DNA of 64,000 bases. It comes from Alphaproteobacteria bacterium. GTDB lineage: Bacteria > Pseudomonadota > Alphaproteobacteria > UBA8366 > GCA-2717185. Location: positions 1 to 64,000 of the forward strand of contig JBBDQU010000074.1 in assembly GCA_040905865.1 (NCBI GenBank). The letters run 5' to 3'. The notes under the pieces were generated by a model that was not told the origin of the DNA, did not search any database, and worked only from the letters and a program-made list of their open reading frames with translations. This document shows positions 3,367-21,167 of this stretch, in pieces (positions within the stretch are counted from its first letter, which is position 1; each line of letters begins with the position of its first letter). Made by a program: the position numbers and the translations under genes.

Positions 3367-3412
3367 AAAGGTATTATTAGGGGGGTATGAGGGGTAACCT
3401 TAGGAGGCGGAC

Positions 3413-4255: not shown

Positions 4256-4310
4256 CCGGGAAAGGCATGGCAGGACGTTTTAGCTGGATGTAAACCCAGC
4301 CTTGCGCGAA

Positions 4311-4385
4311 CGCCGGGCCCGGGCCGATGCGAATTGAATATCGTCCTAAATAGCGCCCTAAATATCTATCGTGTCGCCGCCGTCG
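4311..4385. repeat. Right-hand copy of the SDR 3'-end repeat
   Basis: Positions 4311-4385 (end of the intact SDR gene plus its 3' flank) are about 85 percent identical to 3180-3252. The two copies are in direct orientation and bracket the TylF-like methyltransferase. Confidence 0.65.
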
Positions 4386-5140
4386 ACGAAGAAGGTCTGG
4401 CCGGTGATCCAGGAGCCGGCGTCCGATGCCAACAGCACCGCCATGCCGGCGATGTCCTCGGGCTCGCCGATCCGGCGCAACGGGATTTTCGCGAGACGCT
4501 TGTTCAAGGCGTCCGGATTTTCCCACAGCACCCTCGAGAAATGGGTTTTGACCAAGCCGGGCGCGATCGCGTTGACGCGGATGTTGTCGGGTCCGTGCTC
4601 GACGGCCAGGTTGCGCACCAACTGGCTGAGCGCCGCCTTGGTGAGCGAATACCCGGTCGTGTTGTTGCCCTTCTTCACCGCAACCGACGACATCATGATG
4701 ATCGCGCCGTCGCGCCGCGCGGTCATCTCGGGCACCACCAGGCGGCAGAGATGCAGATTGGCGCGCACGTTGGCCCGCATGAACAGATCGAATTTATCGT
4801 CGGGCATCTCGATCGCCGGGCCGAAATACGGGCTGATGGCGGCGTTGCCGACCAGGATGTCGACGCGCCCCCAGGCTTCGCGGGTTTTCGCGATCAGGGC
4901 ATCCAGGTCCGCCGACTCGACGATATTGCACGGCACCGCCATCGCATCGCCGCCCCGGGCCTTGACGTCGAGCTCGCGAATTTTTGCCGCCGCCTCCTCG
5001 CAGGCATCGGGCTTGCGGCTCGACACCACGACCCGGGCGCCGCGCTCGGCCAAAGCCCGGGCGATGGCGAAACCGATACCGCGGCTCGAACCGGTGATGA
5101 CGGCGACTTTTTGGCTAAGATCGAACGGATCGGAAGACAT
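4358..5140 (-). CDS. Short-chain dehydrogenase/reductase (SDR)
   Basis: A classical SDR of 260 residues, an NAD(P)-dependent oxidoreductase of the cytoplasm. The cofactor motif TGSSRGIG is at residues 16-23, the NAA motif appears in LVGNAAISPY, and the catalytic Ser and Tyr-x-x-x-Lys appear in MMSSVAVKKGNNTTGYSLTK. The C-terminus LASDAGSWITGQTFFVDGG is characteristic. Such proteins are usually dehydrogenases of secondary alcohols or sugars, or FabG-like ketoreductases; the substrate cannot be read here. It lies divergent from the TauD-like pair starting at 5283, with 142 bases between them. Its 3' end is duplicated at 3180-3252. Confidence 0.93.
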   Translation of the reverse strand: MSSDPFDLSQKVAVITGSSRGIGFAIARALAERGARVVVSSRKPDACEEAAAKIRELDVKARGGDAMAVPCNIVESADLDALIAKTREAWGRVDILVGNAAISPYFGPAIEMPDDKFDLFMRANVRANLHLCRLVVPEMTARRDGAIIMMSSVAVKKGNNTTGYSLTKAALSQLVRNLAVEHGPDNIRVNAIAPGLVKTHFSRVLWENPDALNKRLAKIPLRRIGEPEDIAGMAVLLASDAGSWITGQTFFVDGGDTIDI

Positions 5141-5282
5141 TTTTGATAATTCTCGATAGTTGCACGATTTTTAGGGGTCTTTTGCATGCCCGCGGATTTG
5201 CGCTAGACTATAGAAAATCAAAACCTTTCCGACTACATACCTTTTAACCCTTAACTCTTTGCCGGGAATCACCGTTCACGCC

Positions 5283-6155
5283 ATGACGGCCACCAAGATC
5301 GAAATCATCCCCCTGAGCGAGCCTATCGGCGCCGAAATCCGCGGCCTGGACGTCAAGAAAATGGACGCGGGGTCCTACAGGATCGTGCGCCGGGCCTGGC
5401 TCGATTATGGCGGGATCCTGCTGTTTCGCGACCAGGAGATGGACTGCCCCGCACTCCTCGCATTCAGCGAATGGTTCGGCGACATCGACATGCCGCGCAA
5501 AACCCGCGTCGACAACGATCCCTGGATTCCCCAATTCCCGCAGTTCATCCTCGTGACCAACCTCAAGGGCGAAAGCGGCCAACCACTCGGCGCGCTCGGC
5601 AACGGCGAAGCCTTCTGGCACGCCGACATGACTTACCTGGACGAGGTGCCGCGCGCGAGCATCCTGTATTCCGTCGAAGTGCCGCCGGAAGGCGGCGACA
5701 CGGGTTTTCTCAATATTTACGAAGCGATCCGAACCATGCCCCCGGCGTTGCGTAAAAAAATCGAGGGCCGCGTGCAACTGCACGATCATGTCCACAACTC
5801 GACCGGCGCCCTCACGCCGAATTGGGACGAGCAGCAAGAGCCGCGCGAAACGCCCGGCGCGCGCCATCCGATGATCATCAAGCATCCGGAAACCGGGCGC
5901 GAGGCGCTGATGATCGGGCGCCGCCCGTACGCCTACATCCACGGCTACGACTTGGAGGAAAGCGAGCAAATCCTCAACGACGTCTGGGCCCACGCCACGC
6001 AGGAGAAATTCACCTGGCATCACGCATGGCGGCCCGGCGACATCGTAATCTGGGATAACTTCTGCGCCATGCACCACCGCAACCCGTTCGACGACGCCAA
6101 GCGGCGCGTAATGTTACGCACGCAAATCAAGGGAGAGCGGCCGCGCGCCGCCTGA
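5283..6155 (+). CDS. TauD/TfdA-family Fe(II)/2-oxoglutarate dioxygenase
   Basis: A 290-residue non-heme iron dioxygenase that couples 2-oxoglutarate decarboxylation to substrate hydroxylation, as taurine and 2,4-D dioxygenases do. The metal-binding triad is visible as His113-x-Asp115 in GEAFWHADMTY and His264 in CAMHHRNPFD. An Arg near the C-terminus (RRVMLRTQIKG) binds 2-oxoglutarate. I start at the ATG at 5283 because the family begins near IEIIPLSEPIGAEI; a TTG at 5259 would add eight residues. The next gene follows after 6 bases and is a paralogue, so the two are probably co-transcribed and arose by tandem duplication. The substrate is unknown. Confidence 0.92.
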   Translation: MTATKIEIIPLSEPIGAEIRGLDVKKMDAGSYRIVRRAWLDYGGILLFRDQEMDCPALLAFSEWFGDIDMPRKTRVDNDPWIPQFPQFILVTNLKGESGQPLGALGNGEAFWHADMTYLDEVPRASILYSVEVPPEGGDTGFLNIYEAIRTMPPALRKKIEGRVQLHDHVHNSTGALTPNWDEQQEPRETPGARHPMIIKHPETGREALMIGRRPYAYIHGYDLEESEQILNDVWAHATQEKFTWHHAWRPGDIVIWDNFCAMHHRNPFDDAKRRVMLRTQIKGERPRAA

Positions 6156-6161
6156 AACGCC

Positions 6162-7055
6162 ATGGAATCAGCCATCGAGAAATCGGAGATCAAGACCGCC
6201 GGCCTTCAAGTCATCCCCACCGGAGCCGCGCTCGGCGCCGAAGTCATCGTCGACGACCTGCGCTCGATCGATGCCGGGGCCTTCAAGCAAATCGAGGCCG
6301 CGTGGTTCAAGCATTCGGTTCTGCTGTTTCGCAATCAGACCCTGAGCGACGACGACCTTCAGGACTTCGCCAAACGGTTCGGCGAACTCGAGTTGCCGGC
6401 CCGTTCGCGCATCGGCCAGCCGTGGATTCCCGAGTCGCCCTACCTGACCTGCATCTCGAACGTCAAAACCGACACCGGCAAGCCGACCGGCTCCCTCGGC
6501 GACGGCGAAGCGGTCTGGCACGCCGATCTGACGTTTCTCGAACAACCGCCGACGGGCTGTTTCCTCTACGGCATCGAAATCCCCGACCATGGCGGCGACA
6601 CCGGTTTTTGCAGCCTGTACCGGGCGTACGACACGTTGCCGGCGAACCTGAAGAAGAGAATCGAAGGCCGCACGCTCATTCACGATCACACCCGCAACAG
6701 CGCCGGCTTTCTCCGCCCGAACCAGCCCGAAAACCTCGACAACCCGGAAGACAACCCGGGCGCGCGCCATCCGATCATTTGCACCCATCCCAAGTCGGGG
6801 CGCAAACTGCTGTTCCTCGGCCGCCGTCCGCACGCCTTCATCATCGGCATGTCCCTCGAGGAAAGCGACGAGGTGCTCGATGCCCTGTGGGACCACACGA
6901 CGCAAAAGCAGAACACCTGGCATCATTCCTGGCGGCGCGGCGATCTCATTCTGTGGGACAATACGTGCGTGCTGCACCGGCGCGATTCGTTCGACCCGAA
7001 CGCGCGCCGCGTCCTGCACCGGACTCAAATCAAGGGCTCCCGTCCCCGCGCCTAA
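6162..7055 (+). CDS. TauD/TfdA-family Fe(II)/2-oxoglutarate dioxygenase (tandem paralogue)
   Basis: A 297-residue paralogue of the preceding dioxygenase with the same order of motifs: a shared hydrophobic LLFRNQTL block, His120-x-Asp122 in GEAVWHADLTF, the distal His in CVLHRRDSFD and the Arg of RRVLHRTQIKG. Both proteins share the signature GARHPI(I) followed by HP.(S/T)GR, so they belong to one subfamily. It is 6 bases downstream of its partner and likely in the same transcript. A dispersed repeat remnant begins 3 bases past the stop, and a GC-rich hairpin follows at 7102-7133. Confidence 0.92.
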   Translation: MESAIEKSEIKTAGLQVIPTGAALGAEVIVDDLRSIDAGAFKQIEAAWFKHSVLLFRNQTLSDDDLQDFAKRFGELELPARSRIGQPWIPESPYLTCISNVKTDTGKPTGSLGDGEAVWHADLTFLEQPPTGCFLYGIEIPDHGGDTGFCSLYRAYDTLPANLKKRIEGRTLIHDHTRNSAGFLRPNQPENLDNPEDNPGARHPIICTHPKSGRKLLFLGRRPHAFIIGMSLEESDEVLDALWDHTTQKQNTWHHSWRRGDLILWDNTCVLHRRDSFDPNARRVLHRTQIKGSRPRA

Positions 7056-7057
7056 AG

Positions 7058-7074
7058 CAGGTTCACATGATTTA
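7058..7074 (+). repeat. Dispersed motif, copy B (degenerate)
   Basis: CAGGTTCACATGATTTA matches the first part of the dispersed 26-mer (CAGATTCACATGGTTGT) at 13 of 17 positions and then diverges. As in the other copies it lies immediately after a stop codon. Confidence 0.45.
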
Positions 7075-7101
7075 GGCACCTCACCTTGCAAAACGGTTCC
7101 G

Positions 7102-7133
7102 CCCGGGCCTGCCTACTAGTAGATAGGCCCGGG
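7102..7133. repeat. GC-rich hairpin after the dioxygenase pair
   Basis: CCCGGGCCT (7102-7110) pairs with AGGCCCGGG (7125-7133); the loop itself contains the palindrome CTACTAGTAG. It may end transcription of the dioxygenase pair, but no T-tract follows, so intrinsic termination is uncertain. Confidence 0.6.
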
Positions 7134-7359
7134 GTCGCGTTCCGGCCCAAAAGCCGGCCCTGACGGATTGCTTCGTCTCGCGGTACGGTCTGTGATATCC
7201 TTTCGGGAAAGCGCCAAGACTTGGGGGAGGACACGGCCATGCCGAAACGACTCCCATGGTCCCGTTCCTCCTCTAATCGATCGACACGCAACCGGTTGCC
7301 CCGTTTGCAACGCAGCACGCCGGTTGTCCCATCAGGGTATTGGTTTGCAGGAGGGACTC

Positions 7360-7794
7360 ATGCGCGTATCGAACATTCTCAGCCTGAAAGGCCGCGACGT
7401 CTTCACGGTCGTTCCGGACACGACCGTCGCCAAGGTCGTGAAAACGCTGCAGCAAAAACGGATCGGCGCGATTCTGGTCGTGGACGCCGGCAAGATCGCG
7501 GGCATCGTGTCCGAACGCGACGTCACGCGGGGGCTCGCCGACCACGGCGCCGAGGTTCTGGACATGCCGGTTTCCGCTCTGATGACGCGCGCGGTCACGA
7601 CATGCTCGCCCGACTCCACCATCGATCATATCATGCACATGATGACGGAAAGCCGCGTCCGCCATCTACCGGTGGTCGAGCGCGACCGTCTCGTCGGCTT
7701 CATTTCCATCGGCGACGTGGTGAAAAACCGGCTTCAGGAACTCGAGGCCGAGGAAAATCAACTGCGCGAATACGTGACCGGCAGCAGCTATTGA
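7360..7794 (+). CDS. CBS-domain pair protein
   Basis: A 144-residue protein made of two CBS modules, which bind adenosine nucleotides and often sense energy state. The first runs from DVFTVVPDTTVAKVVKTL to ILVVDAGKIAGIVSERDVTR, the second from ALMTRAVTTCSPDSTI to HLPVVERDRLVGFISIGDVV. The C-terminal tail (LEAEENQLREYVTGSSY) is the form seen in stand-alone alphaproteobacterial CBS proteins. The ATG at 7360 is chosen over a longer frame because CAGGAGGGACTC precedes it at ideal distance and the first CBS domain begins at once. The last 101 bases recur, mutated, at 16465-16563, on the far side of the glycan cassette. Confidence 0.9.
   Translation: MRVSNILSLKGRDVFTVVPDTTVAKVVKTLQQKRIGAILVVDAGKIAGIVSERDVTRGLADHGAEVLDMPVSALMTRAVTTCSPDSTIDHIMHMMTESRVRHLPVVERDRLVGFISIGDVVKNRLQELEAEENQLREYVTGSSY
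7694..7794 (+). repeat. Left copy of a 100-bp direct repeat (CBS gene 3' end)
   Basis: The final 101 bases of the CBS gene, stop codon included, match 16465-16563 with two substitutions, a 2-base deletion and a changed stop codon (TGA to TAA). The two copies are in direct orientation and enclose 8.7 kb of surface-glycan genes. Confidence 0.9.
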
Positions 7795-7861
7795 GACGCA
7801 CCAGGCGATCCGACGGTGAAAACGGGAATATAGTCCCCCGACACCGACGCGGATTTACGCC

Positions 7862-9397
7862 CTATACACAAAAAGGTTTGTCGGAACAGTAATAGCGTCG
7901 TCCGTATTTGGCTTCGTCGTTCCGTGGCCCAAGCCATTTGCCTTCCGCGATCCGGCGCAAGGTCTGACGTCTCCGTACCGGCTCCAATTCGGGAGCATCA
8001 TCAATCGGATTGTTGAGCACCTCTACGACAATCCGCCGTTTGCTCTTATATCCCCGCACGCGCCACTGGGCGCCGTCGAGCATCAGTTCGTAATCACCCG
8101 ATTCGACCGGCAACCGCTCCGCCGACTGTCGCCAAAATGAATTCTCCGGCGGTTGGTAGAATGACGCCACGAGCGAACGCAGAGACCAAAGACTGCTGGC
8201 GGGTCCGGAATACGGATCGAGGAGACGCGGATCGGCGTCCCAATACCCTTGCGTGATCCCGCCATGACGGAGCGCCCCATGACGGATAAAATAACGCCAA
8301 ACCGTGTCGAGCGCGCGGCGCGCTTCCCCCGCAGAGACGATATCCGAATGACGTTCGCACCCGAATACGAGCGGCGCCGGTGCCGCCATTCGGTAACAGA
8401 GGCTTCGTCCCATAATGGGGATGCCCTCGGGTCCTATCAGGAACTTGTAACCCGATAGGAACTTTCGCAGGCTGTCTCGGATAAATTCAGGATCCCAATC
8501 CGGATCGATTTTGTCGATCCAGTCGAGAGCGTAATGAAAGCCCCAGGCGTTATAAAAATCGACCCTGCCGTTCGGCCCGTCCTTGAACCAACCGTCCCCG
8601 AGGTGGAACTCTTTGATGCGCTCATAATGAGCTTTAGCGCTTGAAATGCGGCCCGGATAGCCCAACGTGGCCAACACGCGATCGATTAAGACGAAAAAAA
8701 GATGCCAGTTATTATCGAGGCCCGGACACGAGTCCACGAGAGCGAGCCACGATACCACCTGATCGCGGCGGTCGGGGGGCAAGGAATTCCAAACGGTATC
8801 GCGGAAAAGCCATAAGGCAAGCGCAATGTCGGCAGCTTCGACAATCCGTTGATTACTCTTCCCGGGCATGTCTCCCCAATAGGAACGCGACCTGGGATCG
8901 GTTCCGGCAAGAAGGCCGCGCTCGAACTCTTTGGGAAGAGATATGCTTTTGTTACCCGGCAGGGTTAATTGCGGGTCTCGACCGGAGGCGCACCACGCTC
9001 CGAATAGCGGCATGATTCGGGAAAAGCCTTCGAGCTCATCCATTTTTCGACCGCTCCAACTCGGCAGGCCCGGATAAGCAGCACCTGCGCCGGAAGTGCA
9101 ACGGTACGCCGTCCAGCCGAGCGCAAAGTACCGGAAAAGGTCTTGGTATACTTTTGCATCCGGATGATCCATTGCCGAGAAGTTAGCAAGAAGCGCTTCA
9201 CCATGACGGGAAAAGCGCAATGGCCGCAAAACCGTTGGAGATCGCAGACAAAGCAGCCAGAGAAGCCTGCTCCGATCCAGAACTTGATTTCGCGCATTTT
9301 CCGCCAGCACGTGCAGGGCCCTCCGATTTGGCTGCTTAAAGGCTAAAGCATTCTTTTCATGCATGCAATTCGGCGTCAGATGATTCAATCTTGACAC
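7862..9397 (-). CDS. DUF2264-type protein, probable glycan-active enzyme
   Basis: A 511-residue protein resembling the DUF2264 family. Landmarks are LPSWSGRKMDELEGFSRIMP near residues 111-130, the run NSLPPDRRDQVVSWLALV, then DNNWHLFFVLIDRVLATLG, and FHLGDGWFKDGPNGRVDFYN, which are conserved in that family and suggest an alpha/alpha-toroid fold like those of unsaturated glycoside hydrolases and lyases. No signal peptide is evident. The first codon is a GTG at 9397; a downstream ATG at 9364 is an alternative. It is convergent with the CBS gene and divergent from the ABC exporter, inside the glycan cassette, which fits a role in handling surface polysaccharide. The activity is not established by sequence. 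Confidence 0.75.
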   Translation of the reverse strand: MSRLNHLTPNCMHEKNALAFKQPNRRALHVLAENARNQVLDRSRLLWLLCLRSPTVLRPLRFSRHGEALLANFSAMDHPDAKVYQDLFRYFALGWTAYRCTSGAGAAYPGLPSWSGRKMDELEGFSRIMPLFGAWCASGRDPQLTLPGNKSISLPKEFERGLLAGTDPRSRSYWGDMPGKSNQRIVEAADIALALWLFRDTVWNSLPPDRRDQVVSWLALVDSCPGLDNNWHLFFVLIDRVLATLGYPGRISSAKAHYERIKEFHLGDGWFKDGPNGRVDFYNAWGFHYALDWIDKIDPDWDPEFIRDSLRKFLSGYKFLIGPEGIPIMGRSLCYRMAAPAPLVFGCERHSDIVSAGEARRALDTVWRYFIRHGALRHGGITQGYWDADPRLLDPYSGPASSLWSLRSLVASFYQPPENSFWRQSAERLPVESGDYELMLDGAQWRVRGYKSKRRIVVEVLNNPIDDAPELEPVRRRQTLRRIAEGKWLGPRNDEAKYGRRYYCSDKPFCV

Positions 9398-9412
9398 AAC
9401 CTGATCACACGA

Positions 9413-9427
9413 AAGCCTTCAAGGCTT
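9413..9427. promoter_or_regulatory. Perfect 15-bp palindrome in the divergent control region
   Basis: AAGCCTT-C-AAGGCTT lies between the minus-strand DUF2264 gene and the plus-strand exporter operon, 16 bases from the DUF2264 start. Its symmetry and position suit a dimeric repressor site, but no regulator is encoded in the cassette. Confidence 0.3.
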
Positions 9428-9488
9428 CGTTACGATTCAAAAATTAAATGAACAGGCAAAATAAAAGGAGGTCAGCGAGAAAAATAAT

Positions 9489-9626
9489 ATGGCATACACC
9501 GAAAACCGGTTTAGCCATCTGCAAGAGTCTCTTCTTGTTCGACGCTTGCCGAAAATTCCAAATGCTTCTCTTCCATTGTTCCTAAAAACACGTATCAAGC
9601 CGTTATCCAAGAAACGGTCCGGCTGA
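9489..9626 (+). CDS. Possible 45-residue leader peptide before the exporter
   Basis: An ATG at 9489 opens a 45-codon frame whose TGA (9624-9626) overlaps the ATG of the ABC exporter by one base (TGATG), a layout typical of translational coupling. The peptide is basic (many Lys and Arg) without a membrane segment. A strong GGAGG lies at 9467-9471, but 17 bases from the ATG, which is too far for an efficient start. It may be a coupling leader or a chance frame. Confidence 0.3.
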   Translation: MAYTENRFSHLQESLLVRRLPKIPNASLPLFLKTRIKPLSKKRSG

Positions 9627-11425
9627 TGCTCGTCTCACTCAAGAAACTCGTCGCTCTTCTAACACGGCACAACCGGCGCACGATCGTGATCTTGTTCGGT
9701 TTGATGATCGCGGGCTCGTTGCTTGAGGTGGTTGGCATTGCGGCTATCCCCATCTTCGTGAGCACGATTGTCGACCCTTCGGCGCTAAATAAGTTTCCGG
9801 CTTTGCAAGAATTCCTCGCCACATACCAAATGACCGACAAACGAGAATTGGTTTTATGGGGCGCTCTCATTCTGATCGTCGTGTTCGGTATTAAGAACGG
9901 CTTTCTTGTTTTCAGTTTCTACTGGCAGATGGTGTTCGTTAAAAATCGACGCATCGAACTTTCACGATCCCTCACCCACGCTTATATGGGAGCGCCGTAT
10001 ACATTCCATCTCACGCACAACACTTCCGAAATCATGAGCAATATCGACCGTGAGGTCACGTTGATCGCCAATCAGGTAATCACGCCGATTCTCGAGATTG
10101 CCACACGTTTTCTGATGCTTCTTGGGATTTTAGTTTTCCTGTTCGCGGTTGAACCCTTAATCACTCTTTTTTGGCTGCTGGCTTTCAGTTTGATCGGTGT
10201 GCTCGGCATTGTCGCCCTAAGTACAAAGTTGAAGCTTTTCGGCCTCGAGGAACAGCAGAACCGGCGGCGGTTCGTCAAAGCACTCTATCAAGGGTTCGGA
10301 ATTATCAAGGAGGCACGAATCCTGAATCGCGAATCGTTTTTTTCCAAACAAATCGTGGAAACCGTAAGCCGGATGGCGAAGACGTTGGCGTTCAAGCAAT
10401 TTGCGACAAAGGCGGTTCCCCCGGTCACCGAATTCGCCGCATTGACCAGTTTGCTGTGTCTCGTGGTGGGTCTGATTCTTCTCGGCCGATCGACCGAGTC
10501 GATTCTCATCACGTTATCGCTGTTTATCGTCGGCCTGATCAGAATGCGCGAAACCATCAGCGCCGCCATGGCTCACTTTGCCACATTGCGCTACTCGATC
10601 GTCTCGATCGATCCCGTCTACAACGACCTCAAATATTTGGAGTCACGCAGCAAAACCTCGCATTTAGAGTCGGCGGCCACTCCCCAGCCGTATCACATGC
10701 ATCAACAGATCGAATTGCGCGACGTTTCCTATCGTTATGACGGCGCACCGCACGACGCTCTCAAGGATATTAATCTCGTTATCCCGGCAGGTTCCGCGGT
10801 CGGTTTTGTGGGCAGCACCGGAGCCGGCAAGTCGACTATCGTGGACACGATCCTGGGATTGCTCGATCCGGTAAAAGGGGGCGTGTTCGTCGATGGGAGA
10901 GACATCCGCGAGCGTGGGATCGATTCGTGGCAGGCGACGATAGGCTATGTGCCCCAGTCCATCTATCTCCTCGACGATACGATCCGTCGTAATATTGCGC
11001 TCGGCATTTCCGATGACGAAATAGACGAACGTGCGGTGTGGAATGCGCTAAAAGCGGCACAGCTCGAGAATTTCGTGAATCATCACCCCGCGGGCTTGGA
11101 TTCCGTAGTCGGCGAACAAGGTGTCAGATTATCGGGCGGAGAACGCCAACGCATCGGGATTGCGCGCGCCCTCTATCACGATCCGGACGTGCTCATCCTC
11201 GATGAAGCGACCTCTTCACTCGACGCGGCCACGGAACGCAGCATCGCCGCCTCGGTCGAGGAACTCAAGGGGCGCCGTACCATCATCATGATCGCGCACC
11301 GTCTTTCGACGGTGAGAAAGTGCGACATGTTGTACTTCCTTAAGGACGGCAAAATCGAGGCACACGGAGATTACGACGAACTCCAAGTTCGTCATCCAGA
11401 TTTCAAAGTCATGGCAACGATATAA
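9626..11425 (+). CDS. ABC exporter, fused permease and ATPase (PglK/MsbA-like)
   Basis: A 599-residue half-transporter. The N-terminal 320 residues form an exporter-type membrane domain with hydrophobic segments at about 20-45, 76-103, 160-200 and 265-305. The ATPase domain carries Walker A GSTGAGKST (396-404), the Q-loop in GYVPQSIYLLDD, signature LSGGERQR (501-508), Walker B VLILDE (521-526) and the switch His in IAHRLSTV. The family includes flippases of lipid-linked oligosaccharides (PglK) and lipid A (MsbA). With glycosyltransferases directly downstream, moving a lipid-linked glycan across the inner membrane is the likely role. It is the first full gene of a plus-strand operon through 16419. 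Confidence 0.9.
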   Translation: MLVSLKKLVALLTRHNRRTIVILFGLMIAGSLLEVVGIAAIPIFVSTIVDPSALNKFPALQEFLATYQMTDKRELVLWGALILIVVFGIKNGFLVFSFYWQMVFVKNRRIELSRSLTHAYMGAPYTFHLTHNTSEIMSNIDREVTLIANQVITPILEIATRFLMLLGILVFLFAVEPLITLFWLLAFSLIGVLGIVALSTKLKLFGLEEQQNRRRFVKALYQGFGIIKEARILNRESFFSKQIVETVSRMAKTLAFKQFATKAVPPVTEFAALTSLLCLVVGLILLGRSTESILITLSLFIVGLIRMRETISAAMAHFATLRYSIVSIDPVYNDLKYLESRSKTSHLESAATPQPYHMHQQIELRDVSYRYDGAPHDALKDINLVIPAGSAVGFVGSTGAGKSTIVDTILGLLDPVKGGVFVDGRDIRERGIDSWQATIGYVPQSIYLLDDTIRRNIALGISDDEIDERAVWNALKAAQLENFVNHHPAGLDSVVGEQGVRLSGGERQRIGIARALYHDPDVLILDEATSSLDAATERSIAASVEELKGRRTIIMIAHRLSTVRKCDMLYFLKDGKIEAHGDYDELQVRHPDFKVMATI

Positions 11426-11456
11426 ATCACGTTGAGTTTGCGAATTGAGGCTAGTA

Positions 11457-12713
11457 ATGGCGAACATAACAGATTCCATCGACCGTCACGAACTCTCCGA
11501 TACCTTCGCATACAAGACCCTGAGAAAGATCGGCGGCCGCATACGCCGCGGCCTGATGCACCTGCCGCCCCGACTGATGGCCGCCGGCCTCCCGCCATCC
11601 TGGGTCGGATACCGGTGGATGGCCGAGGAAAAGGTCGCCGCTTACTTTGCGCGCCACCGCAGGACCCTTGCGCCGGCCGAGTCCTACGAAACGATCCACC
11701 CGCGTGCCGTCGCCGCGAATCCTCTGCCGCTCAATGTCTTCGACCGGGAAACACTTCCGAAGGAACGAGGCTGGTGGGGATATTCGTTCTACGACGTTCC
11801 CGAACGGGTCAGCGATGAGACCTTCATCGCAACGGTAGCCGATTGCCGTATTTACTTCGCTTTCGATTCGAGAAAACAGTTTTATCCTTGCATCGTAACG
11901 AAAGACGACCGGGCGCTTTATCTAAGGGAAATCGCCTTCAAGCCGCACCACTTTCCCGTCGTCAGGGAGGCACGCCAACCCATTCGTATCCAACAAGCGA
12001 CATGGATTCTCGAGCGCGTGTACCATAATCATTCGCATTGGCTGACGGCCCATCTCCCCAAACTGAACTTGCTTAAATCACGCCAGGCTCTCGAAAACGT
12101 GCTGCTGCCGCCGAGCCTCGGTGGCGCCATGGACGCGTCGCTGCGGCTGCTCGGCCTCGACCCCGCCGATTTTCAAACGTTCGATCCGACCCGCCCGATC
12201 GAAGTAAAAGAACTAACGGTCGTCGGCACGGACCGTTTCCGCCCGGAATTGCTGCGCCCGGTACGCGATACGCTTGCTATCGCGGGGACACGGCCGCCGG
12301 AGCGGCGCATCTTCATCAGCCGGGCCCGCTCTCACGGGCGGCAACTCGTCAACGAAGACGAAATTTGGCCGATTTTGCGGAATGCCGGCTTCGAACGTGT
12401 GTTCATGGAAGAACTCTCCTTCGAGGAACAGGTCCGTTTAATGGGAGAAACCGCTGTCCTCCTTGCCCCCCATGGCGCGGGCATGACCAATATGATGTTC
12501 TGTCCGGCGGGCGCGCAGGTTGTCGAAATCGCGGATCTCGGTTTTCCAAACCCGAACTTTTACGCCCTTGCCTCCGCCATGGGACACGGTTACCGGATCG
12601 TGCCGGCCCAGGCCTTGGGGGAGGTCCACCCGTTGCATAAGGACCTCGCGGTCAATCCATCGGCCGTTCGCGAGGCGATCGGACAAATCGAAGCAGCAAA
12701 GGCGGCGGAATGA
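11457..12713 (+). CDS. Glycosyltransferase family 61 protein
   Basis: A protein of about 418 residues with the GT61/DUF563 C-terminal region. VVGTDRFRPELLRPVRD is followed by RRIFISRARSHGRQLVNEDEI (the usual R.RR...NE.E block), then FERVFMEELSFEEQV and the diagnostic LLAPHGAGMTNMMFCPAGAQVVEI. GT61 enzymes add xylose, arabinose or GlcNAc-type residues; bacterial members occur in capsule and O-antigen clusters. The start ATG at 11457 is preferred over one codon group upstream because GAGG precedes it at about 7 bases. Its stop overlaps the next start by four bases (ATGA), showing tight coupling. Confidence 0.88.
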   Translation: MANITDSIDRHELSDTFAYKTLRKIGGRIRRGLMHLPPRLMAAGLPPSWVGYRWMAEEKVAAYFARHRRTLAPAESYETIHPRAVAANPLPLNVFDRETLPKERGWWGYSFYDVPERVSDETFIATVADCRIYFAFDSRKQFYPCIVTKDDRALYLREIAFKPHHFPVVREARQPIRIQQATWILERVYHNHSHWLTAHLPKLNLLKSRQALENVLLPPSLGGAMDASLRLLGLDPADFQTFDPTRPIEVKELTVVGTDRFRPELLRPVRDTLAIAGTRPPERRIFISRARSHGRQLVNEDEIWPILRNAGFERVFMEELSFEEQVRLMGETAVLLAPHGAGMTNMMFCPAGAQVVEIADLGFPNPNFYALASAMGHGYRIVPAQALGEVHPLHKDLAVNPSAVREAIGQIEAAKAAE

Positions 12714-14683
12714 GAGTTTCGGTCGTCATTCCCTGTCGCAACGGCGCGGACTTGATCGCTTCAACACTCGACTCGCTTTTTAACCAGACCCTCCTCCCAT
12801 CCGAAACGATCCTGGTGGACAACGGTTCTACAGACGAGAGCGTGGCTATTGCCGAGACTTACGGCAAGCGCGTTTCCATTCTCTCCGAGCCTAGACCCGG
12901 CGCTTCGGTCACGCGGAATACGGGAGCGGCAGTCGCCACGGGCGATGCGATCATGTTCCTGGATGCCGACGATCTGCTCGGCCCGACGGCGCTTGAAAGC
13001 TTGGTTGCCGCTTTGGCCGACAATACCGGCAAGGTGGCCTGCTGTCCTTGGTATCGTTTCGAGCCGCACGGCAACTGTTGGTTCAGCGCGCCGCCGTCCT
13101 GCGCACCGCGCTGGCCCTGGCAAGACGACCTCGCCGCCTGGCTCACCGGCTGGTATCACCCGCCCTGCTCCGTGCTGTGGTCCCGCGAGGCCTACGAAAG
13201 AACCGACGGTTGGAGCGAGGACGTAAAAGTCAATACCGACGGCGACATCATGATGCGCGGCTTCATTCTCGGGAACCGGCTCGTGCGGACCCGCGCGGGT
13301 GCTGCGTACTACCGCCGGTTGCCGGCAGGGCAAGTCTCTCTCAGCGCAACGCGCAATACCGAGAAGGGTCTCGCGTCCCGTCTCCTGGTCCTGAAACGTG
13401 TCGGGGAAATGCTCGAAACCAGGAGCCGTCTTAACCGTTACCGCACTCCGCTCGGCATGGCGTTCGACGCCCTGGCTGCGGATAGTTCTGCTTACCCCGA
13501 GCTACAGCAAAAATGCCTAGCCGAGGCGAAACGGTGTTGTGGTCCACCCTCGTTGCGGCAGATGCGGCGTGTGCCCGCCGATGTGGCTTCGAAACTACGT
13601 TGGCGGGCCATTAGAGCACATGACTCCCTAGAACCCGAAATCGCACCGATTATGCCGGCCCGTGCCGAAGCACCGGCGGCGGACACCGTTTTCTCCACCG
13701 AACATACCGGCCCAAAACCGAAAGTCACCGTCATCATTCCAACCTTCGACCGGGCTCACATTTTGCCACGCGCCATCGATAGCGTTCTCGAGCAAAGCTT
13801 CGGGGATTTTGAGCTACTGGTAATCGACGACGCCTCACACGACGAGACGAAGGATGTCGTCGCCCAATATTCAGATCCGCGCCTGCAATACATAAAGCTC
13901 GAAAAAAATGGCGGTGTCGCGGCAGCCCGGAATTCGGGAATTCGTCGCGCACGCGGTGACTATATCGCCTTTCTCGACTCGGATGATGAATGGTTGTCCG
14001 AAAAACTGGCCCTGCAAGTCGGACTTCTCGATCGGCTGCCGAAGTCCACGGGACTCGTTTATTCCGCCATCGAAATTCTCGGCAGAGAAAGCGGCGTGGA
14101 GATTCTTGTTCCGGAAACACATGGCTACCCGCATCGCGCCCATCTATCCGGAACATTCATCGGCGCTGGGGGGTCCAACATCATGATACGCAAGGATGTA
14201 ACCCGAATGATCGGTTTCTTCGACGAATCCTTGCCTGCTATTGAAGATTTCGACTTTTGTCTTCGAGTCGGGCGTTTCTTCCGGATCGAGTTCATAGACC
14301 AGCCGCTCGTACGCTATCACGACACCGTGCAGGAAAGCGACTGTCAAGCCGGCGATCAGCGGCGATCACGCAATTTTATGCGGAACTTTCAGGCTCGCCA
14401 TGAGTTATTTAGAAGGAATCGTCATGAAATGCACGATTTGGGAGTCGAGCATTTATTCAGGCTTGAAACAGCGAAACGGCATTTAAATTGGCCTGAAGGA
14501 AACCATGCGATCGCCCGGCGAATGCTTCTACAGGGAATCCTGCGACAACCCGGCGAGCCCTCTCTCTATCCCTGGCTCGGCAAGTCTCTTTTGCCGGCGC
14601 GGCTTAGACCGTATGCCGGTGCCTTCGTGCGGCAGTTCCGCAATGCGTTCACGCCGGGCCCGCAGTTGAGCAAGAAATCATAA
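12710..14683 (+). CDS. Two-domain family 2 glycosyltransferase
   Basis: 657 residues with two complete GT-A glycosyltransferase domains in one chain. Domain 1 begins VSVVIPCRNGADLI and has the donor-site ILVDNGSTDES and the acidic FLDADDLL. Domain 2 begins near residue 338 with KVTVIIPTFDRAHILPRAID, then LLVIDDASHDET, the NGGVAAARNSG block and FLDSDDEWL. Such double GT2 proteins can build alternating or disaccharide units in capsules and O-chains. It starts within the stop of the GT61 gene (ATGA overlap). A 70-base gap then precedes the FkbM gene. The sugar specificities cannot be read. Confidence 0.9.
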   Translation: MRVSVVIPCRNGADLIASTLDSLFNQTLLPSETILVDNGSTDESVAIAETYGKRVSILSEPRPGASVTRNTGAAVATGDAIMFLDADDLLGPTALESLVAALADNTGKVACCPWYRFEPHGNCWFSAPPSCAPRWPWQDDLAAWLTGWYHPPCSVLWSREAYERTDGWSEDVKVNTDGDIMMRGFILGNRLVRTRAGAAYYRRLPAGQVSLSATRNTEKGLASRLLVLKRVGEMLETRSRLNRYRTPLGMAFDALAADSSAYPELQQKCLAEAKRCCGPPSLRQMRRVPADVASKLRWRAIRAHDSLEPEIAPIMPARAEAPAADTVFSTEHTGPKPKVTVIIPTFDRAHILPRAIDSVLEQSFGDFELLVIDDASHDETKDVVAQYSDPRLQYIKLEKNGGVAAARNSGIRRARGDYIAFLDSDDEWLSEKLALQVGLLDRLPKSTGLVYSAIEILGRESGVEILVPETHGYPHRAHLSGTFIGAGGSNIMIRKDVTRMIGFFDESLPAIEDFDFCLRVGRFFRIEFIDQPLVRYHDTVQESDCQAGDQRRSRNFMRNFQARHELFRRNRHEMHDLGVEHLFRLETAKRHLNWPEGNHAIARRMLLQGILRQPGEPSLYPWLGKSLLPARLRPYAGAFVRQFRNAFTPGPQLSKKS

Positions 14684-14753
14684 GCCGCAGCGCGCCGACG
14701 ACCGGCACGATACTTAGCGGATGAAAAACTTAAATCGGTAACGGAGATATACC

Positions 14754-15641
14754 ATGCACGACCTAACGCTCTCAATGCGAGCCGTGATGACGGCGCGCCG
14801 GATGGGTAAAAAATTTGCGAAGCGGATCGGCGGATATGTCGATTACGACTTACACCTTTATGAAGCAATCGAGAGCCTCCGCCAATGGTCCTCAAAGGAT
14901 ATCATTTTCGATGTAGGCGCCAATGACGGGCGGACGGTTTCCCGTCTTATGAACCACCTGCCATCACCGAAAATTTACGCTTTCGAGCCCGTGACCGAGA
15001 CATACCGGTTGCTGGTTAAGGAAACATCGAAACTATCCAACGTCATCCCGATGAATCTCGCTCTGGGGACCGAGGTCGGCAAACAAATAATGTATCTAAA
15101 CGATCAAAGCGTGCTCAGTTCCCTCTATCCTGAATGGTCGGATTACGACAAAACCGAAGAGATCGACATAACGACTGTCGATTCAATGGTAGATAAACTC
15201 GGCATTGACTCGATAGCCCTTCTGAAAATCGATGCGGAAGGACATGACTTCGATGTCGTGAAAGGCGCCGAGAACTCCATCCGTTCCGGAAGCATCAATA
15301 TGATCCAGGTTGAAGCCGGTTTCGATGCACCGGGGTGGCGCAAAATGCCGTCCCTCTGGGACTTTCGAGACTACCTAGATTCCTTCGGCTATTACCTGCA
15401 CGGAGTCTACAACCAATGCAAAGCGCCAATTTCGGCAGTCGATAACGACGGATTCGCCGACGCCGATAAACTAAATAAGAACATTCTTGTGTTTTGCGAC
15501 GCTCTTTTTGTGCGACATGGAAATCCAAATAAATCGCTAAATCAATTATTAGGACTGTTGCCCGGACGAGAAAACACGCGTCAACAGCTACATAAACACG
15601 ACGCAAATAAATTATCCGAGAAAGAAATAGAAGGAGGATGA
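14754..15641 (+). CDS. FkbM-family methyltransferase
   Basis: A 295-residue SAM methyltransferase of the FkbM type. Motif I is IIFDVGANDGRTVSRL (about residues 50-65), followed by KIYAFEPVTETYRLL, the NLALGTEVGK block, TTVDSMVDKL and the characteristic LLKIDAEGHDFDVVKGAENS. FkbM enzymes O-methylate sugars or polyketides, and in bacterial surface clusters they usually methylate glycans. It follows the double glycosyltransferase and lies one base before the next methyltransferase, so the two are surely co-translated. The DNA here is visibly more AT-rich than the flanking core genes. Confidence 0.92.
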   Translation: MHDLTLSMRAVMTARRMGKKFAKRIGGYVDYDLHLYEAIESLRQWSSKDIIFDVGANDGRTVSRLMNHLPSPKIYAFEPVTETYRLLVKETSKLSNVIPMNLALGTEVGKQIMYLNDQSVLSSLYPEWSDYDKTEEIDITTVDSMVDKLGIDSIALLKIDAEGHDFDVVKGAENSIRSGSINMIQVEAGFDAPGWRKMPSLWDFRDYLDSFGYYLHGVYNQCKAPISAVDNDGFADADKLNKNILVFCDALFVRHGNPNKSLNQLLGLLPGRENTRQQLHKHDANKLSEKEIEGG

Positions 15642-15642
15642 G

Positions 15643-16419
15643 ATGAATTTCGAAAAAATTCACGATCTTATCGGCCACATTCCCTTCATCACCGAGCAAA
15701 ATGCACGTTACATTTACGAGCTCATCATTGAAAAGAAGATTCAGGACGTTCTTGAATTGGGGATCGGCCACGGGGCCGCCATCTGCTATATCGCAGCCGC
15801 CCTTGACGAATTGAAACGAGGCACGGTAACCGGCGTAGATTTGCTCGAGGCCGCGGATATGTTCATGCCTTCGGCTGAAGAACTCGTGCAGCAATTTGGC
15901 CTAGAACGTTATGTAGAAATTTACCGCATGGAGTCCGGCTACAACTGGTTCCTGCATGACAAGATCGCAAGTCAAACGAAGGATAATGCCTGCGAAGAGT
16001 GCTACGATCTATGCATCATCGACGGGCCGAAGAACTGGACGATCGATGGCGCGGCCTTTTTCATGGTGGACAAGCTTTTGCGCAAGGATGGCCGCCTTAT
16101 CTTCGATGATTATGATTGGACTTACTCTCAAGCACATGAAACCCGTGACGCCACGGACGGCATAACGCACCGCGGGCTCTCGACAGAGGAGCTTACGACA
16201 CCCCACATCAAGGAAGTCGTCGACCTTCTCGTTCTCCAACACCCGAACTACGGCAAGCTCACGATGTTGAACGGCACCGAATGGGTCATCGCTGAAAAGG
16301 TTGCCGCCCAAAGGAAAGTGGTGGAGTTGACCCGCTCCCTTACGTTGAAGGAATGTGTGCATCGACTCGTGATGCTTCTAAAAGAAACATCGTACCCGAA
16401 AGCTGTTCGCAAACCTTAG
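15643..16419 (+). CDS. Class I SAM methyltransferase (Methyltransf_24-like)
   Basis: A 258-residue protein with the SAM-binding motif VLELGIGHGAAICYIAAAL (about residues 38-56), GTVTGVDLLEAAD, the acidic LCIIDGPKNWTIDGAAFF and GRLIFDDYDWTY. This order matches the Methyltransf_24/cephalosporin-hydroxylase-like group that modifies sugars in surface polymers and natural products. AGGAGGATGAG gives a strong ribosome-binding site overlapping the end of the FkbM gene. It is the last gene of the cassette. The duplicated CBS tail begins 46 bases after its stop. The acceptor is unknown. Confidence 0.83.
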   Translation: MNFEKIHDLIGHIPFITEQNARYIYELIIEKKIQDVLELGIGHGAAICYIAAALDELKRGTVTGVDLLEAADMFMPSAEELVQQFGLERYVEIYRMESGYNWFLHDKIASQTKDNACEECYDLCIIDGPKNWTIDGAAFFMVDKLLRKDGRLIFDDYDWTYSQAHETRDATDGITHRGLSTEELTTPHIKEVVDLLVLQHPNYGKLTMLNGTEWVIAEKVAAQRKVVELTRSLTLKECVHRLVMLLKETSYPKAVRKP

Positions 16420-16464
16420 AATTCCTACCGCTTGCCTCGGCATTTCTCGCACCGACCGGCGAGA

Positions 16465-16563
16465 TCGGCTTTATTTCCATCGGCGACGTGGTGAAAAACC
16501 GGCTTCAGGATCAAGGCCGAGGAAAATCAACTGCGCGAATACGTGACCGGCAGCAGCTATTAA
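16465..16563 (+). pseudogene. Truncated copy of the CBS gene 3' end
   Basis: About 99 bases repeat 7694-7794 in direct orientation (two substitutions, a 2-base deletion that shifts the frame, stop TAA in place of TGA). No start codon, promoter or upstream part of the gene accompanies it. It marks the right boundary of the glycan cassette and shows that the cassette was placed next to, or copied together with, this gene end. Confidence 0.9.
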
Positions 16564-16904
16564 AACCGTACACCGGTTCTTTCCGCGCAGACGATGGCTC
16601 CGGAGATTATCCTCGGATGCCGATAATCGCGGCCGGGCCATTCAGGGCCGTTCCCGTCGGCATGGTCCCGGATGATCGTCTCGCTCACAAAAACAAAACC
16701 GTTTTTCACACCCTCGGGAAGATAAAGAGCGGGCGTCCGACGGACGCTGACCGCTTCTCGTGTTTCGTTCTAAAAATTTTTCAACGGGGCGCGATACGGG
16801 AAATAAAACGGCTGGCATTGAAATACAGGCGGCCATAATTTATACATGATAATTCATAAAACGAATGACAACCGTCAAACACATAACAAACAAGGGGTGC
16901 TTCA
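16564..16904. other. Intergenic region right of the glycan cassette
   Basis: 341 bases with no gene-like frame. The open frame at 16353-16838 only reads the frameshifted CBS remnant. The last 90 bases turn AT-rich and contain a good promoter candidate (16818-16846) for the receptor gene. Confidence 0.5.
16818..16846 (+). promoter_or_regulatory. Candidate sigma-70 promoter for the Bug-type receptor gene
   Basis: TTGAAA (16818-16823), exactly 17 bases, then TATACA (16841-16846). The start codon at 16905 is about 50 bases past the expected transcription start, with AAGGGG just before it. Confidence 0.5.
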
Positions 16905-18038
16905 ATGTTCTTACCTAAACGGGAGGCAAACACGGCCGTGCGTTGCCTGAAATCGATTGGCGTCGTTGCGATGATCGCTTTTGCCGCAAGCGCGTTCCTC
17001 AATTCTTCTTCCGCTTTTGCGGTCGATTTTTCGGGAAAGAAAATCACCGCCCTCGTGCCGTTTAAGGAAGGCGGCGGCATGGATAACTTCACGCGCCTCT
17101 TCGCACCGTACTTTTCAAAATACCTTCCCGGCCAACCGACGATCCTCGTGCGCAACATGCCGGGCGGCGGCAGCATTCGCGCGAACAATTGGTTCCAGAG
17201 CAACGCCAAGCCCGACGGGTCGATCTATCTGGGCGTCGCGATCTCAAATCAGACGAATTTCGTGATGGGCGGCGACAAGGTCAAATACGATATGCGGCAA
17301 TGGGAATATATCCTGAACTCACCGCAGGGATGGGTGGTGCTCGCGCGTCCGGAAACCGGGGTCAAAGGTAAGAACATCCACGACGATATTACCGCGCTTC
17401 GGAACATCCAAGTCATCGAGGGCACCAAAACGCCGGCCTCGAGCGGCTTGACCGATTTTCTCGCTTTCGAACTGCTCGGCATTAAGAACGTAAAACCGGT
17501 GTTCGGCCTGTCGACGGGCGGACGGCGCAAGGCGACCTTGCGCGGCGAGCTCAACGTCAATCACGAAACCGGCCTGGTCTATCAAAAACGCATTACGAAA
17601 TACGTGAAAGCGGGCAAGCTCGTCCCCCTGATGACTCTGGGCTTCACCGATAAAAGCGGCAATATCGTGCGCGATCCGAGCTACCCCGATATACCGACCA
17701 TCGTCGACGCCTATAAGGCCGTGAACGGCGGCAAGATGCCCTCGGGAATTCTGTGGGAGGCTTACAAGAACCTCTACACCATGGCGGCCATGGCGACGAA
17801 CGGCTTCGCCCTGCCCCCGAAGACGCCGAAAGCGATCCTCGACGTTTACGTCGGGGCGGCGAAGAAGATCATGACGGACAAGGATTTCCTGAAAACGGCG
17901 GGCAAGACGTTCGGCAACTACCCGGTCTACTTCGGCGAAGACGCCAGGAAAAACTACATGGCCGCGATCGACATCTCGCCCGAGGTCAAGACGTTCCTGA
18001 AGGACTTCATTTCCAAGAAATACGGCACGAACATCTAG
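16905..18038 (+). CDS. Bug/TctC-family periplasmic solute receptor
   Basis: 377 residues with a signal peptide (basic start, hydrophobic VVAMIAFAASAFLNSSSAFA, cleavage near residue 42) and a TctC/Bug body: ITALVPFKEGGGMDNFTRLF at the start of the mature protein, then LVRNMPGGGSIRANNWF, which matches the family's P.GGG.D...R and GG...A.N signatures. These proteins bind carboxylates for tripartite tricarboxylate transporters or for sensing. No TctA or TctB membrane genes lie nearby, so it is an orphan receptor, common in Proteobacteria. AAGGGGTGCTTCA supports the ATG. It faces the minus-strand dioxygenase at 18204. Confidence 0.88.
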   Translation: MFLPKREANTAVRCLKSIGVVAMIAFAASAFLNSSSAFAVDFSGKKITALVPFKEGGGMDNFTRLFAPYFSKYLPGQPTILVRNMPGGGSIRANNWFQSNAKPDGSIYLGVAISNQTNFVMGGDKVKYDMRQWEYILNSPQGWVVLARPETGVKGKNIHDDITALRNIQVIEGTKTPASSGLTDFLAFELLGIKNVKPVFGLSTGGRRKATLRGELNVNHETGLVYQKRITKYVKAGKLVPLMTLGFTDKSGNIVRDPSYPDIPTIVDAYKAVNGGKMPSGILWEAYKNLYTMAAMATNGFALPPKTPKAILDVYVGAAKKIMTDKDFLKTAGKTFGNYPVYFGEDARKNYMAAIDISPEVKTFLKDFISKKYGTNI

Positions 18039-18193
18039 CAGGCTACTGAAAAACGCCTTGGGTGCCTTGCCTCGCCCTTCGAGACGCTCGCCCTCAGGGT
18101 GAGGCAGGCATTGAAACGATTGACCTCATGCTGAGGAGCGCAGCGTCTCGAAGCACGAGGTCAATCATGAAATCTCGTTTTTTAGCAGCCTGT
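18039..18193. repeat. REP-like palindromic element, about 155 bp
   Basis: The ends AGGCTACTGAAAAACG (just past 18040) and CGTTTTTTAGCAGCCT (up to about 18192) are inverted repeats with two mismatches. Inside lie CTTCGAGACGCTCGCCCTCAG and CTGAGGAGCGCAGCGTCTCG, again inverted. This arrangement is that of the short non-coding palindromic elements common between convergent genes in alphaproteobacteria. It fills the gap between the receptor and the dioxygenase and may also end both transcripts. Confidence 0.75.
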
Positions 18194-18203
18194 TAGAGCA
18201 GAG

Positions 18204-19136
18204 TCACCGGCCGCGCGGGTGCGCTTCCGCGCGCGATCCCTTCGGATCGTAGAACGGCTTGGTGCCTGCCGTTTGCAGCCGGTGCATGATGCGCCGCGCG
18301 TTCGGATCGAACGGATCGCGGTGATGCATGGCGCAGCGGTTGTCCCAGATGACGATGTCGCCGACCCGCCACGCGTGATGCCAGCTGAACCGTTCGTGCT
18401 CGGTGTGCTCGAACAGGCGGTCCAACAACTCTTCGGACTCCGCCACCGAATAGCCGTTGATGTAGCCGAGCGGCCGGCGCCCCAGATAGAGCGCATTGTA
18501 TTTCGTCTCGGGATGGGTGCGGATGATCGGATGGATCGGCCCCGGCGAACACGAAACATCCGTCACCGGCGGTGCATCCGACCGGATTTCCCCGGCGCTG
18601 GTACGGGTGTCGTCGCACTTGATGGTGCGGCCCTCGATCTTTTCCCGAAGCGCGCCCGGCAACTCGCCCAGCGCCGCGTACATGTTCAGGAACCCGGTAT
18701 TGCCGCCCCAGGTATCGGGAATTTCCATCGCCATCAGGATGCTCGCGTCGTAGGGAATGGGCGAGAACGAGGCGTCCGTGTGCCAGATGCATTCACCGTC
18801 GCCCAGCACGCCGATCTTCTTGCCGTTCGCGTCCTTGACGTTGGAAACCACGCGAACCTCGGGACATTCCCGATGATCGGCTCCCTCGCGAATTCGTTCT
18901 TTGTAATAGGCCGTGGTGGCGCCGATCTGCGGCGTGCCGAAAATCTTGCCAAACTCAACGAACTCGGGATTGGTGAGGTGCTGGCCCCGGAACAACAGCA
19001 CGATGTTATCGAGCCAGGCCTGGCGAACGGCCTTGCGGTCGTCCTCGTCCAGCAGGCGGACGTCGTCGCACTTGATCTCGGCCCCGAGGGCCCCCTCGAT
19101 CGGGATAATTTCGAATTTGGTCATCGTTTTGGTCAT
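18204..19136 (-). CDS. TauD/TfdA-family Fe(II)/2-oxoglutarate dioxygenase (third paralogue)
   Basis: A 310-residue relative of the pair at 5283-7055. Iron ligands are His119-x-Asp121 in GECIWHTDASF and the distal His in CAMHHRDPFD, with the 2-oxoglutarate Arg in RRIMHRLQTAG. The N-terminus FEIIPIEGALGAEIKCDDV aligns with the other two copies. It has a longer insertion before the ligand pair (YYKERIREGADH). Two in-frame ATGs lie four codons apart, and I keep the first. It is monocistronic, with the tRNA-His gene upstream. The substrate is unknown. Confidence 0.92.
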   Translation of the reverse strand: MTKTMTKFEIIPIEGALGAEIKCDDVRLLDEDDRKAVRQAWLDNIVLLFRGQHLTNPEFVEFGKIFGTPQIGATTAYYKERIREGADHRECPEVRVVSNVKDANGKKIGVLGDGECIWHTDASFSPIPYDASILMAMEIPDTWGGNTGFLNMYAALGELPGALREKIEGRTIKCDDTRTSAGEIRSDAPPVTDVSCSPGPIHPIIRTHPETKYNALYLGRRPLGYINGYSVAESEELLDRLFEHTEHERFSWHHAWRVGDIVIWDNRCAMHHRDPFDPNARRIMHRLQTAGTKPFYDPKGSRAEAHPRGR

Positions 19137-19215
19137 CGTGAAGCCCGTTATTGTTGGTTGTTGAGCCGATTATAGAACCGGCCCCGGGCAAGATTCAATC
19201 GCAGCGCAAGGAAAA

Positions 19216-19293
19216 TGGGGTGGCTGATGGGAATTGAACCCACGACCCCTAGATCCACAATCTAGTGCTCTAACCAACTGAGCTACAGCCACC
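19216..19293 (-). tRNA. tRNA-His (GTG)
   Basis: Read on the minus strand, the 7-bp acceptor stem GTGGCTG/CAGCCAC is closed by the extra G at position -1 opposite C73, the tRNA-His hallmark. The D-arm is AGCTCAGTTGGTTAGAGC, the anticodon stem-loop is CTAGATTGTGGATCTAG with anticodon GTG, and the T-arm is GTGGGTTCAATTCCCA(T). CCA is encoded at 19216-19218. Confidence 0.97.
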
Positions 19294-19306
19294 ACGAATG
19301 GGGCCT

Positions 19307-19335
19307 GATTTAGTCCCCTGCCCCCGGCGCGTCAA
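19307..19335 (-). promoter_or_regulatory. Candidate promoter of tRNA-His
   Basis: On the minus strand TTGACG (19330-19335) is followed by a 17-base spacer and TAAATC (19307-19312), placing the transcription start a few bases before the tRNA 5' end. Confidence 0.45.
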
Positions 19336-19430
19336 GCGCCGAGCGCGCCTCGTTTGCACGCGGATACTGGACAAACCGGCGCCGGTCGCGCATGAGTCTG
19401 CCCGGTATTTAATCAGCAGGGAAGATCGCC

Positions 19431-20603
19431 ATGTTGCAGATGGCCGAAAGCATGAGCCGCCTCGGTACCGAATCCGCCTTCGAGGTCCTGGCCCGCGCCG
19501 CAAAACTGGAAGCCCAGGGCAAAAGCATCATCAATCTGGGCATCGGCCAGCCGGATTTCAAAACGCCGGACCACATTGTCGAGGCCGCCATCAAGGCGTT
19601 GCGCGACGGGCATCACGGCTATACGCCCGCCAACGGCATCCTGCCGCTGCGCGAAGCGGTCGCCGCCGATTTCGAGAAACGCAACGGCGTCGCGGTGAAC
19701 CCGGACAATGTCGTCGTCGTGCCCGGCGGCAAGGTGACCATGTTTTTCAGCATCCTGATGTTCGGCGGGGCCGGGGTCGATATCCTGTACCCGGACCCCG
19801 GATTCCCGATCTACCGTTCGGTCATCGAATATTCCGGCGCGCGCGCCATTCCCATTCCGCTGCGCGAGGAAAACGAATTTTCGTTCAGCGCCGACGAACT
19901 GCTGTCGCTGATCACGCCGCGCACGAAGATGATCATCCTGAACAGCCCCGCCAATCCGACCGGCGGCGTGCTGGACACGGGCGAACTGGACAAGCTGGTT
20001 GCGGGGCTGGAAGCCCATCCGGACATCGTGATCCTGTCCGATGAAATCTACAGCCAGATGCTTTATGACGGCCGGCGGCATGTCAGCCTGATGACGTATG
20101 AATCGATCCGCGACCGGGTTATCCTGCTGGACGGCTGGTCGAAAACCTATGCCATGACCGGCTGGCGGCTGGGTTACGCCGTCTGGCCGACGGAGCTGGC
20201 AGAATCCGCCACGCGACTGGCGATCAACTGCCATTCCTGCGTCAACGCGCCCACCCAGTTCGCCGGGCTGGCGGCGCTGACCGGGCCGCAGGATGCCGTG
20301 CATGACATGGTAAAGGCATTCGACGAACGCCGGAAGATCATTGTCGAGGAACTGAACAACATTCCCGGATTCCATTGCGTGAATCCCGGCGGCGCCTTTT
20401 ACGCCTTCCCGAATATCGGCGGCACGGGCCTCACGGCGCGCCAGGCGCAGGACGGGTTGCTGACCGAAACCGGCGTCGCCACGGTGGCCGGCACCAGCTT
20501 CGGCGAATACGGCGAAGGCTTCCTGAGATTTTCATACGCCAACAGCGTCGAAAATATCCGCGAGGCCCTGCAGCGTATCCGGGTCTGGCTCCAGGCGCGA
20601 TAG
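19431..20603 (+). CDS. Class I/II PLP-dependent aminotransferase
   Basis: A 390-residue fold-type I aminotransferase, using PLP to move amino groups between amino acids and 2-oxo acids. Signatures include INLGIGQPDFKTPDHI, GYTPANGILPLREAVA, the NSPANPTGGVL loop that holds PLP, SDEIYSQMLYDG, and the Schiff-base lysine in LDGWSKTYAMTGWRLGY. A near-C-terminal Arg in GEGFLRFSYANS binds the substrate carboxylate. The closest group by feel is the AspC/AlaA-like class found next to glnB-glnA in Rhodospirillales. The start ATG at 19431 follows CAGGGAAG; an ATG three codons later is possible. A small stem (20607-20621) follows the stop. Confidence 0.92.
   Translation: MLQMAESMSRLGTESAFEVLARAAKLEAQGKSIINLGIGQPDFKTPDHIVEAAIKALRDGHHGYTPANGILPLREAVAADFEKRNGVAVNPDNVVVVPGGKVTMFFSILMFGGAGVDILYPDPGFPIYRSVIEYSGARAIPIPLREENEFSFSADELLSLITPRTKMIILNSPANPTGGVLDTGELDKLVAGLEAHPDIVILSDEIYSQMLYDGRRHVSLMTYESIRDRVILLDGWSKTYAMTGWRLGYAVWPTELAESATRLAINCHSCVNAPTQFAGLAALTGPQDAVHDMVKAFDERRKIIVEELNNIPGFHCVNPGGAFYAFPNIGGTGLTARQAQDGLLTETGVATVAGTSFGEYGEGFLRFSYANSVENIREALQRIRVWLQAR

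Positions 20604-20642: not shown

Positions 20643-21167
<525 letters not shown>

Follow-up and report, generated by a model that had tools for sequence, protein, structure and literature searches.

A gene end that is duplicated at the far side of a block of DNA is the usual scar of an insertion. In Islander-type islands (PMC4383910), an intact gene and a displaced 3′ fragment of it, in the same orientation, lie at opposite ends of foreign DNA; these islands target tRNA or tmRNA genes and carry an integrase. The locus described here, in a window of 64,000 nucleotides (the whole stretch of DNA that was analyzed), has the same arrangement of intact gene and displaced fragment, but the gene at its end encodes a protein and no integrase was found in the interval. 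Nesting has a described counterpart in CGI48 of Shewanella putrefaciens with its nested GI21 (PMC8978831), which resembles the locus in having a smaller insert within a tRNA-linked variable region. However, CGI48 and GI21 were excised upon expression of an integrase and an excisionase, whereas no integrase was found in the region studied here and its far tRNA-His end lies beyond the contig.

Two further comparisons concern the genes carried between the copies of the gene end. Plasmid pTHAF1_a from Palleronia sp. THAF1 (positions 11932 to 15045, locus L196) carries a GT61 glycosyltransferase gene directly ahead of a double GT2 gene, an order shared with the window, and the proteins are 49% and 43% identical to their respective counterparts. 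That cluster differs from ours in being plasmid-borne and set within a larger polysaccharide region, with no PglK-like exporter, FkbM, or DUF2264 gene annotated beside it. The second comparison is with the Campylobacter ABC flippase PglK, whose structures are matched over the full length of our exporter (residues 5 to 578; E value, 3e-70). However, the exporter scores only 286 bits against the NCBIfam PglK equivalog cutoff of 1000, and so it belongs to a different orthologue group.

The duplicated CBS gene end and the cassette it encloses

The window contains an intact CBS-domain gene of 144 amino acids (7360 to 7794, plus strand; two CBS domains by Pfam), the 3′ end of which recurs downstream. 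Copy 1 of the repeat (7694 to 7797, plus strand) is the in-frame end of the gene with the stop codon TGA, and copy 2 (16465 to 16566, plus strand) is a CBS gene end that has been displaced and frameshifted and still shows what was once its stop codon, now TAA. Both copies have the same orientation, and copy 2 lies 8.77 kb downstream of the 3′ end of CBS. Comparison within the window aligned 7694 to 7792 with 16465 to 16561 at 96% identity over 99 columns (E value, about 3e-39). No other repeat in the window is as strong, and the match extends to 7797/16566 when the stop codon and the bases just after it are included. Two gap-free blocks make up the alignment, 7694 to 7739 with 16465 to 16510 and 7742 to 7797 with 16511 to 16566; between them, near 7740, two bases are missing from copy 2, and because this indel shifts the frame, copy 2 is a dead gene end. 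The substitutions leading from copy 1 to copy 2 are C7701T, G7744A, G7793A, and G7795A, of which G7793A converts the stop TGA to TAA, and all four run from G/C to A/T. Such changes, together with a frame-breaking indel, are as expected of a released copy. The repeated CBS 3′ end reported in the original prediction is thus confirmed by the window alignment, with four substitutions and one 2-base deletion counted.

The longest exact stretch common to both copies is 48 nucleotides. On one side the homology stops 3 bases past the stop codon and on the other it stops inside the CBS gene, and similarity in the 60 bases beyond each repeat edge did not rise above that of shuffled sequence. The fragment is not an ordinary genome-wide repeat: no third copy was found in the 4.37-Mb genome. 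A match on contig C28 was rejected as a third copy, being only 51 bp long, 81% identical, directed at the sequence downstream of CBS, and located where an unrelated reading frame ends. We also discarded a possible micro-inversion at the left boundary of copy 2, as the flank alignments were at chance level.

Between the copies, Pfam bore out every gene family that had been proposed. A DUF2264 gene (7862 to 9397, minus strand; PF10022; E value, 3e-72) is convergent with CBS, and the remaining five genes lie on the plus strand. They encode an ABC exporter, which is a PglK/MsbA-like half transporter (9626 to 11425; PF00005 and PF00664), a GT61 glycosyltransferase (11445 to 12713; PF04577), a two-domain GT2 glycosyltransferase (12710 to 14683; PF00535 twice), an FkbM-family methyltransferase (14754 to 15641; PF05050, with TIGR01444 over its cutoff), and a second methyltransferase (15643 to 16419; Methyltransf_24, PF13578). 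Going by what is known of these families, we presume that a short oligosaccharide, lipid-linked or destined for the surface, is probably built in the cytoplasm and methylated by the cassette enzymes and that the PglK-like ABC protein would probably flip it across the inner membrane. None of the 384 other genomes of the class had a GT61 match at an E value of 1e-40, and no shared cassette was seen in the neighborhoods of the best ABC exporter matches in seven relatives, where a single weak GT2 match was the only one.

The six cassette genes are atypical in codon usage, with scores ranking 2 to 12 (rank 2 for the FkbM gene and rank 4 for the DUF2264, exporter, and Methyltransf_24 genes) against a background of 74 long open reading frames that were chosen by length from stretches of the same genome and may include spurious frames. 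Native-like ranks of 38 to 54 were obtained for the SDR, TauD1, TauD2, CBS, Bug, and TauD3 genes, and the shift in codon usage coincides with both repeat copies. On the left flank, these native-like genes include two tandem TauD-family dioxygenase genes (5259 to 7055, plus strand; PF02668; ranks 44 and 54). On the right flank, they are a gene for a Bug/TctC-like substrate-binding protein (16905 to 18038, plus strand; weak match to the Bug27 structure; rank 38) and a dioxygenase gene (18204 to 19136, minus strand; PF02668; rank 54) of the same TauD family as both genes left of CBS. Further to the left, the MT11 and TylF genes are atypical as well (ranks 5 and 14); the surroundings are patchy in codon usage and the region is not uniformly native. 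The mean GC content is 0.548 inside the cassette, 0.611 on its left, 0.577 on its right, and 0.603 across the remainder of the window. The cassette had been described as more AT-rich than its flanks, which is true on average, but the profile is uneven and the GT61/GT2 stretch around 12 to 14 kb reaches 0.60 to 0.63. Codon usage separates the cassette from its flanks better than GC content does.

A composite transposon was considered and rejected: inverted repeats at the cassette ends scored at the level of shuffled sequence, and there is no transposase. We also observed that three TauD-family genes occur within 14 kb and that the first and third share an 83-bp stretch, 87% identical, in inverted orientation.

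The CBS gene and the tRNA-His boundary

The CBS protein of the window is 48 to 50% identical to those of three congeners, and the latter are orthologues of another CBS protein of the same genome, encoded on contig C46 (63 to 85% identical). Judged by these identities, the window gene is not the CBS gene of the genus and is an accessory gene itself. A scan of 85,000 species genomes placed its nearest protein relatives at 54 to 55% identity, and plasmid-borne relatives are about 50% identical. The suggestion that CBS is a hot spot is not supported: in addition to the accessory nature of the gene, none of 40 CBS homologue loci (out of 80 fetched), each taken with as much as 10 kb of sequence to either side, had a duplicated gene end of similar length and identity, although these homologues are distant and make a weak test. 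Searches of relatives with the CBS DNA (98 genomes) or with the CBS, ABC exporter, and Bug proteins (59 genomes each) found neither an empty nor an occupied site, and the arrangement was not recovered with the 14-kb region (43 genomes of the order) or with GT61 (385 genomes of the class). No genome with CBS joined directly to 16562 onward turned up in the searches of relatives. The congeners have neither this CBS gene nor a syntenic match to anything in 3001 to 19215.

The wider setting became visible when the DNA of 3001 to 22900 was compared with ten relatives. Synteny was present only from 19216 rightward in the congener G003 and in two further relatives (G004 and G010); two others (G006 and G009) matched further to the right, and G007 matched the tRNA-His gene alone, at a contig end. 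A tRNA-His (GTG) gene (19216 to 19292, minus strand) has its 3′ (CCA) end at position 19216, and synteny with the relatives ends exactly there, as it does in tRNA-linked islands. This limit is a larger boundary that the original prediction missed. By this comparison, all DNA left of 19216 is variable region, and the cassette is nested in a tRNA-His-linked accessory region, which is a known kind of structure.

The tRNA-His end has two alternative neighbors, contig C52 of the same genome and the left arm of the window, which belong either to one chromosome or to this and another strain in the bin. C52 ends in 55 nucleotides identical to the 3′ part of tRNA-His (G000:C52:23191-23245), 55 being the likely assembly word size, and in G003 a block 3.6 kb beyond tRNA-His matches C52 at 73 to 79%. 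Matching the sibling as it does, the C52 neighbor is probably the older arrangement; the sequence data fit a mixture of strains as well as an island whose tRNA end was displaced. We found no third contig with a tRNA-His fragment in the genome and no extra tRNA-His fragments inside the window. In G009, a relative from the same family, a 49-nucleotide tRNA-His 3′ fragment adjoins a tyrosine integrase gene (locus L163; G009:C418, 4260 to 5701), which suggests that integrases use tRNA-His in this family. Within the window, Pfam recognized no integrase among the genes tested in 1 to 19215, and there was no PF00589 match on the whole contig.

Elsewhere, positions 2 to 432 of the window are 77% identical to DNA on another contig of the genome (G000:C5:199630-200060), near both contig ends, and this DNA holds a 146-amino-acid reading frame without a Pfam match. 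A TPP riboswitch lies at 41152 to 41247 on the minus strand.

Explanations for the duplicated gene end

We consider it probable that the six genes between 7862 and 16419 form a glycan cassette that was acquired horizontally and inserted at the 3′ end of CBS in a variable region beside tRNA-His. Of the earlier reading as an integrating element or a recombination product, insertion at a gene end is upheld by the intact CBS gene, the frameshifted displaced end, and the foreign codon usage, and the hot-spot part is not supported. We infer the following order of events. CBS would already have resided in the chromosomal variable region next to tRNA-His and would have been followed by 16562 onward, with its Bug-like receptor gene and TauD gene, a pre-insertion order that is drawn from composition only. 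Any insertion model implies a former junction between CBS and the sequence from 16562 onward, and the native-like codon usage on both flanks and the TauD genes on both sides agree with this. The incoming DNA would then have joined inside the CBS coding sequence, so that CBS kept one complete gene end and the second came to lie beyond the cassette, where it may have lost its function, taken a frameshift, and drifted toward AT. The joining itself may have been carried out by a site-specific recombinase that was since lost or acted in trans, or it may have been a RecA crossover within CBS, involving either a circular molecule or linear DNA with an illegitimate second end. An integrase, a RecA crossover with a circle, and one-sided linear integration would each leave such a scar, and the lack of an integrase tilts the choice slightly to the latter two.

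Two narrower versions of insertion at the CBS end can be weighed separately. The first, which is compatible with the general explanation and which we regard as possible, is homologous recombination with a donor in which the cassette followed the same CBS gene, the second end being joined illegitimately inside the recipient CBS and 100 bases being duplicated. Copy 2 starts abruptly inside the gene and runs past the stop codon, as this would predict, no recombinase is needed, and one-sided homologous integration is documented in bacteria (PMC3240628). However, the donor would have to possess the same rare CBS gene, and none that does was seen, the closest relative being about 54% identical.

The second narrower version, which we find slightly less likely, is a tyrosine-recombinase island for which the CBS 3′ end was the attachment site and the two copies are the attachment ends, the integrase having been lost. 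The locus does have the layout of a gene-end island, with a direct repeat at both ends, CBS intact or restored, and a displaced fragment in the same orientation, and attachment at gene ends is known both from tRNA genes and from protein genes (PMC4383910, PMC6563490). Against it, none of the genes between the copies was recognized by Pfam as an integrase, in agreement with what had been predicted, and full-length tyrosine recombinases number just two in the genome, possibly XerC and XerD, with a further fragment of 122 amino acids, none of them on the contig of the window. The lack of a comparable repeat at the 40 CBS homologue loci also argues against this version. A much bolder proposal, and in our view a very doubtful one, is that the cassette has no integrase of its own and moves by recombination at the CBS end, with the recombinase supplied in trans, which would make the surface sugar swappable within the species.

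Outside the insertion models, a CBS-containing segment may have been tandemly duplicated and then mostly deleted, leaving 100 bases beside a cassette that was there earlier. The two copies are 96% alike and the sole ones in the genome, which local duplication would accommodate, but it leaves the change in codon usage at both copies unexplained, and we judge it improbable. An assembly or binning artifact is more improbable still: the assembly is fragmented (85 contigs), the left arm starts where the contig does, and tRNA-His sequence is also present at the end of C52, but the copies differ at five places and have at most 48 exact bases in common, fewer than the apparent 55-base overlap from which the word size was inferred at the C52 end, so that duplication by the assembler is unlikely.

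Insertion at the CBS gene end, which remains our preferred explanation, leaves the knowledge of islands unchanged. Overall, the locus records the acquisition of glycan genes as a clean scar, in a lineage that has been little sampled and within a variable region linked to tRNA-His, and it illustrates how surface-glycan genes may arrive without a resident integrase.
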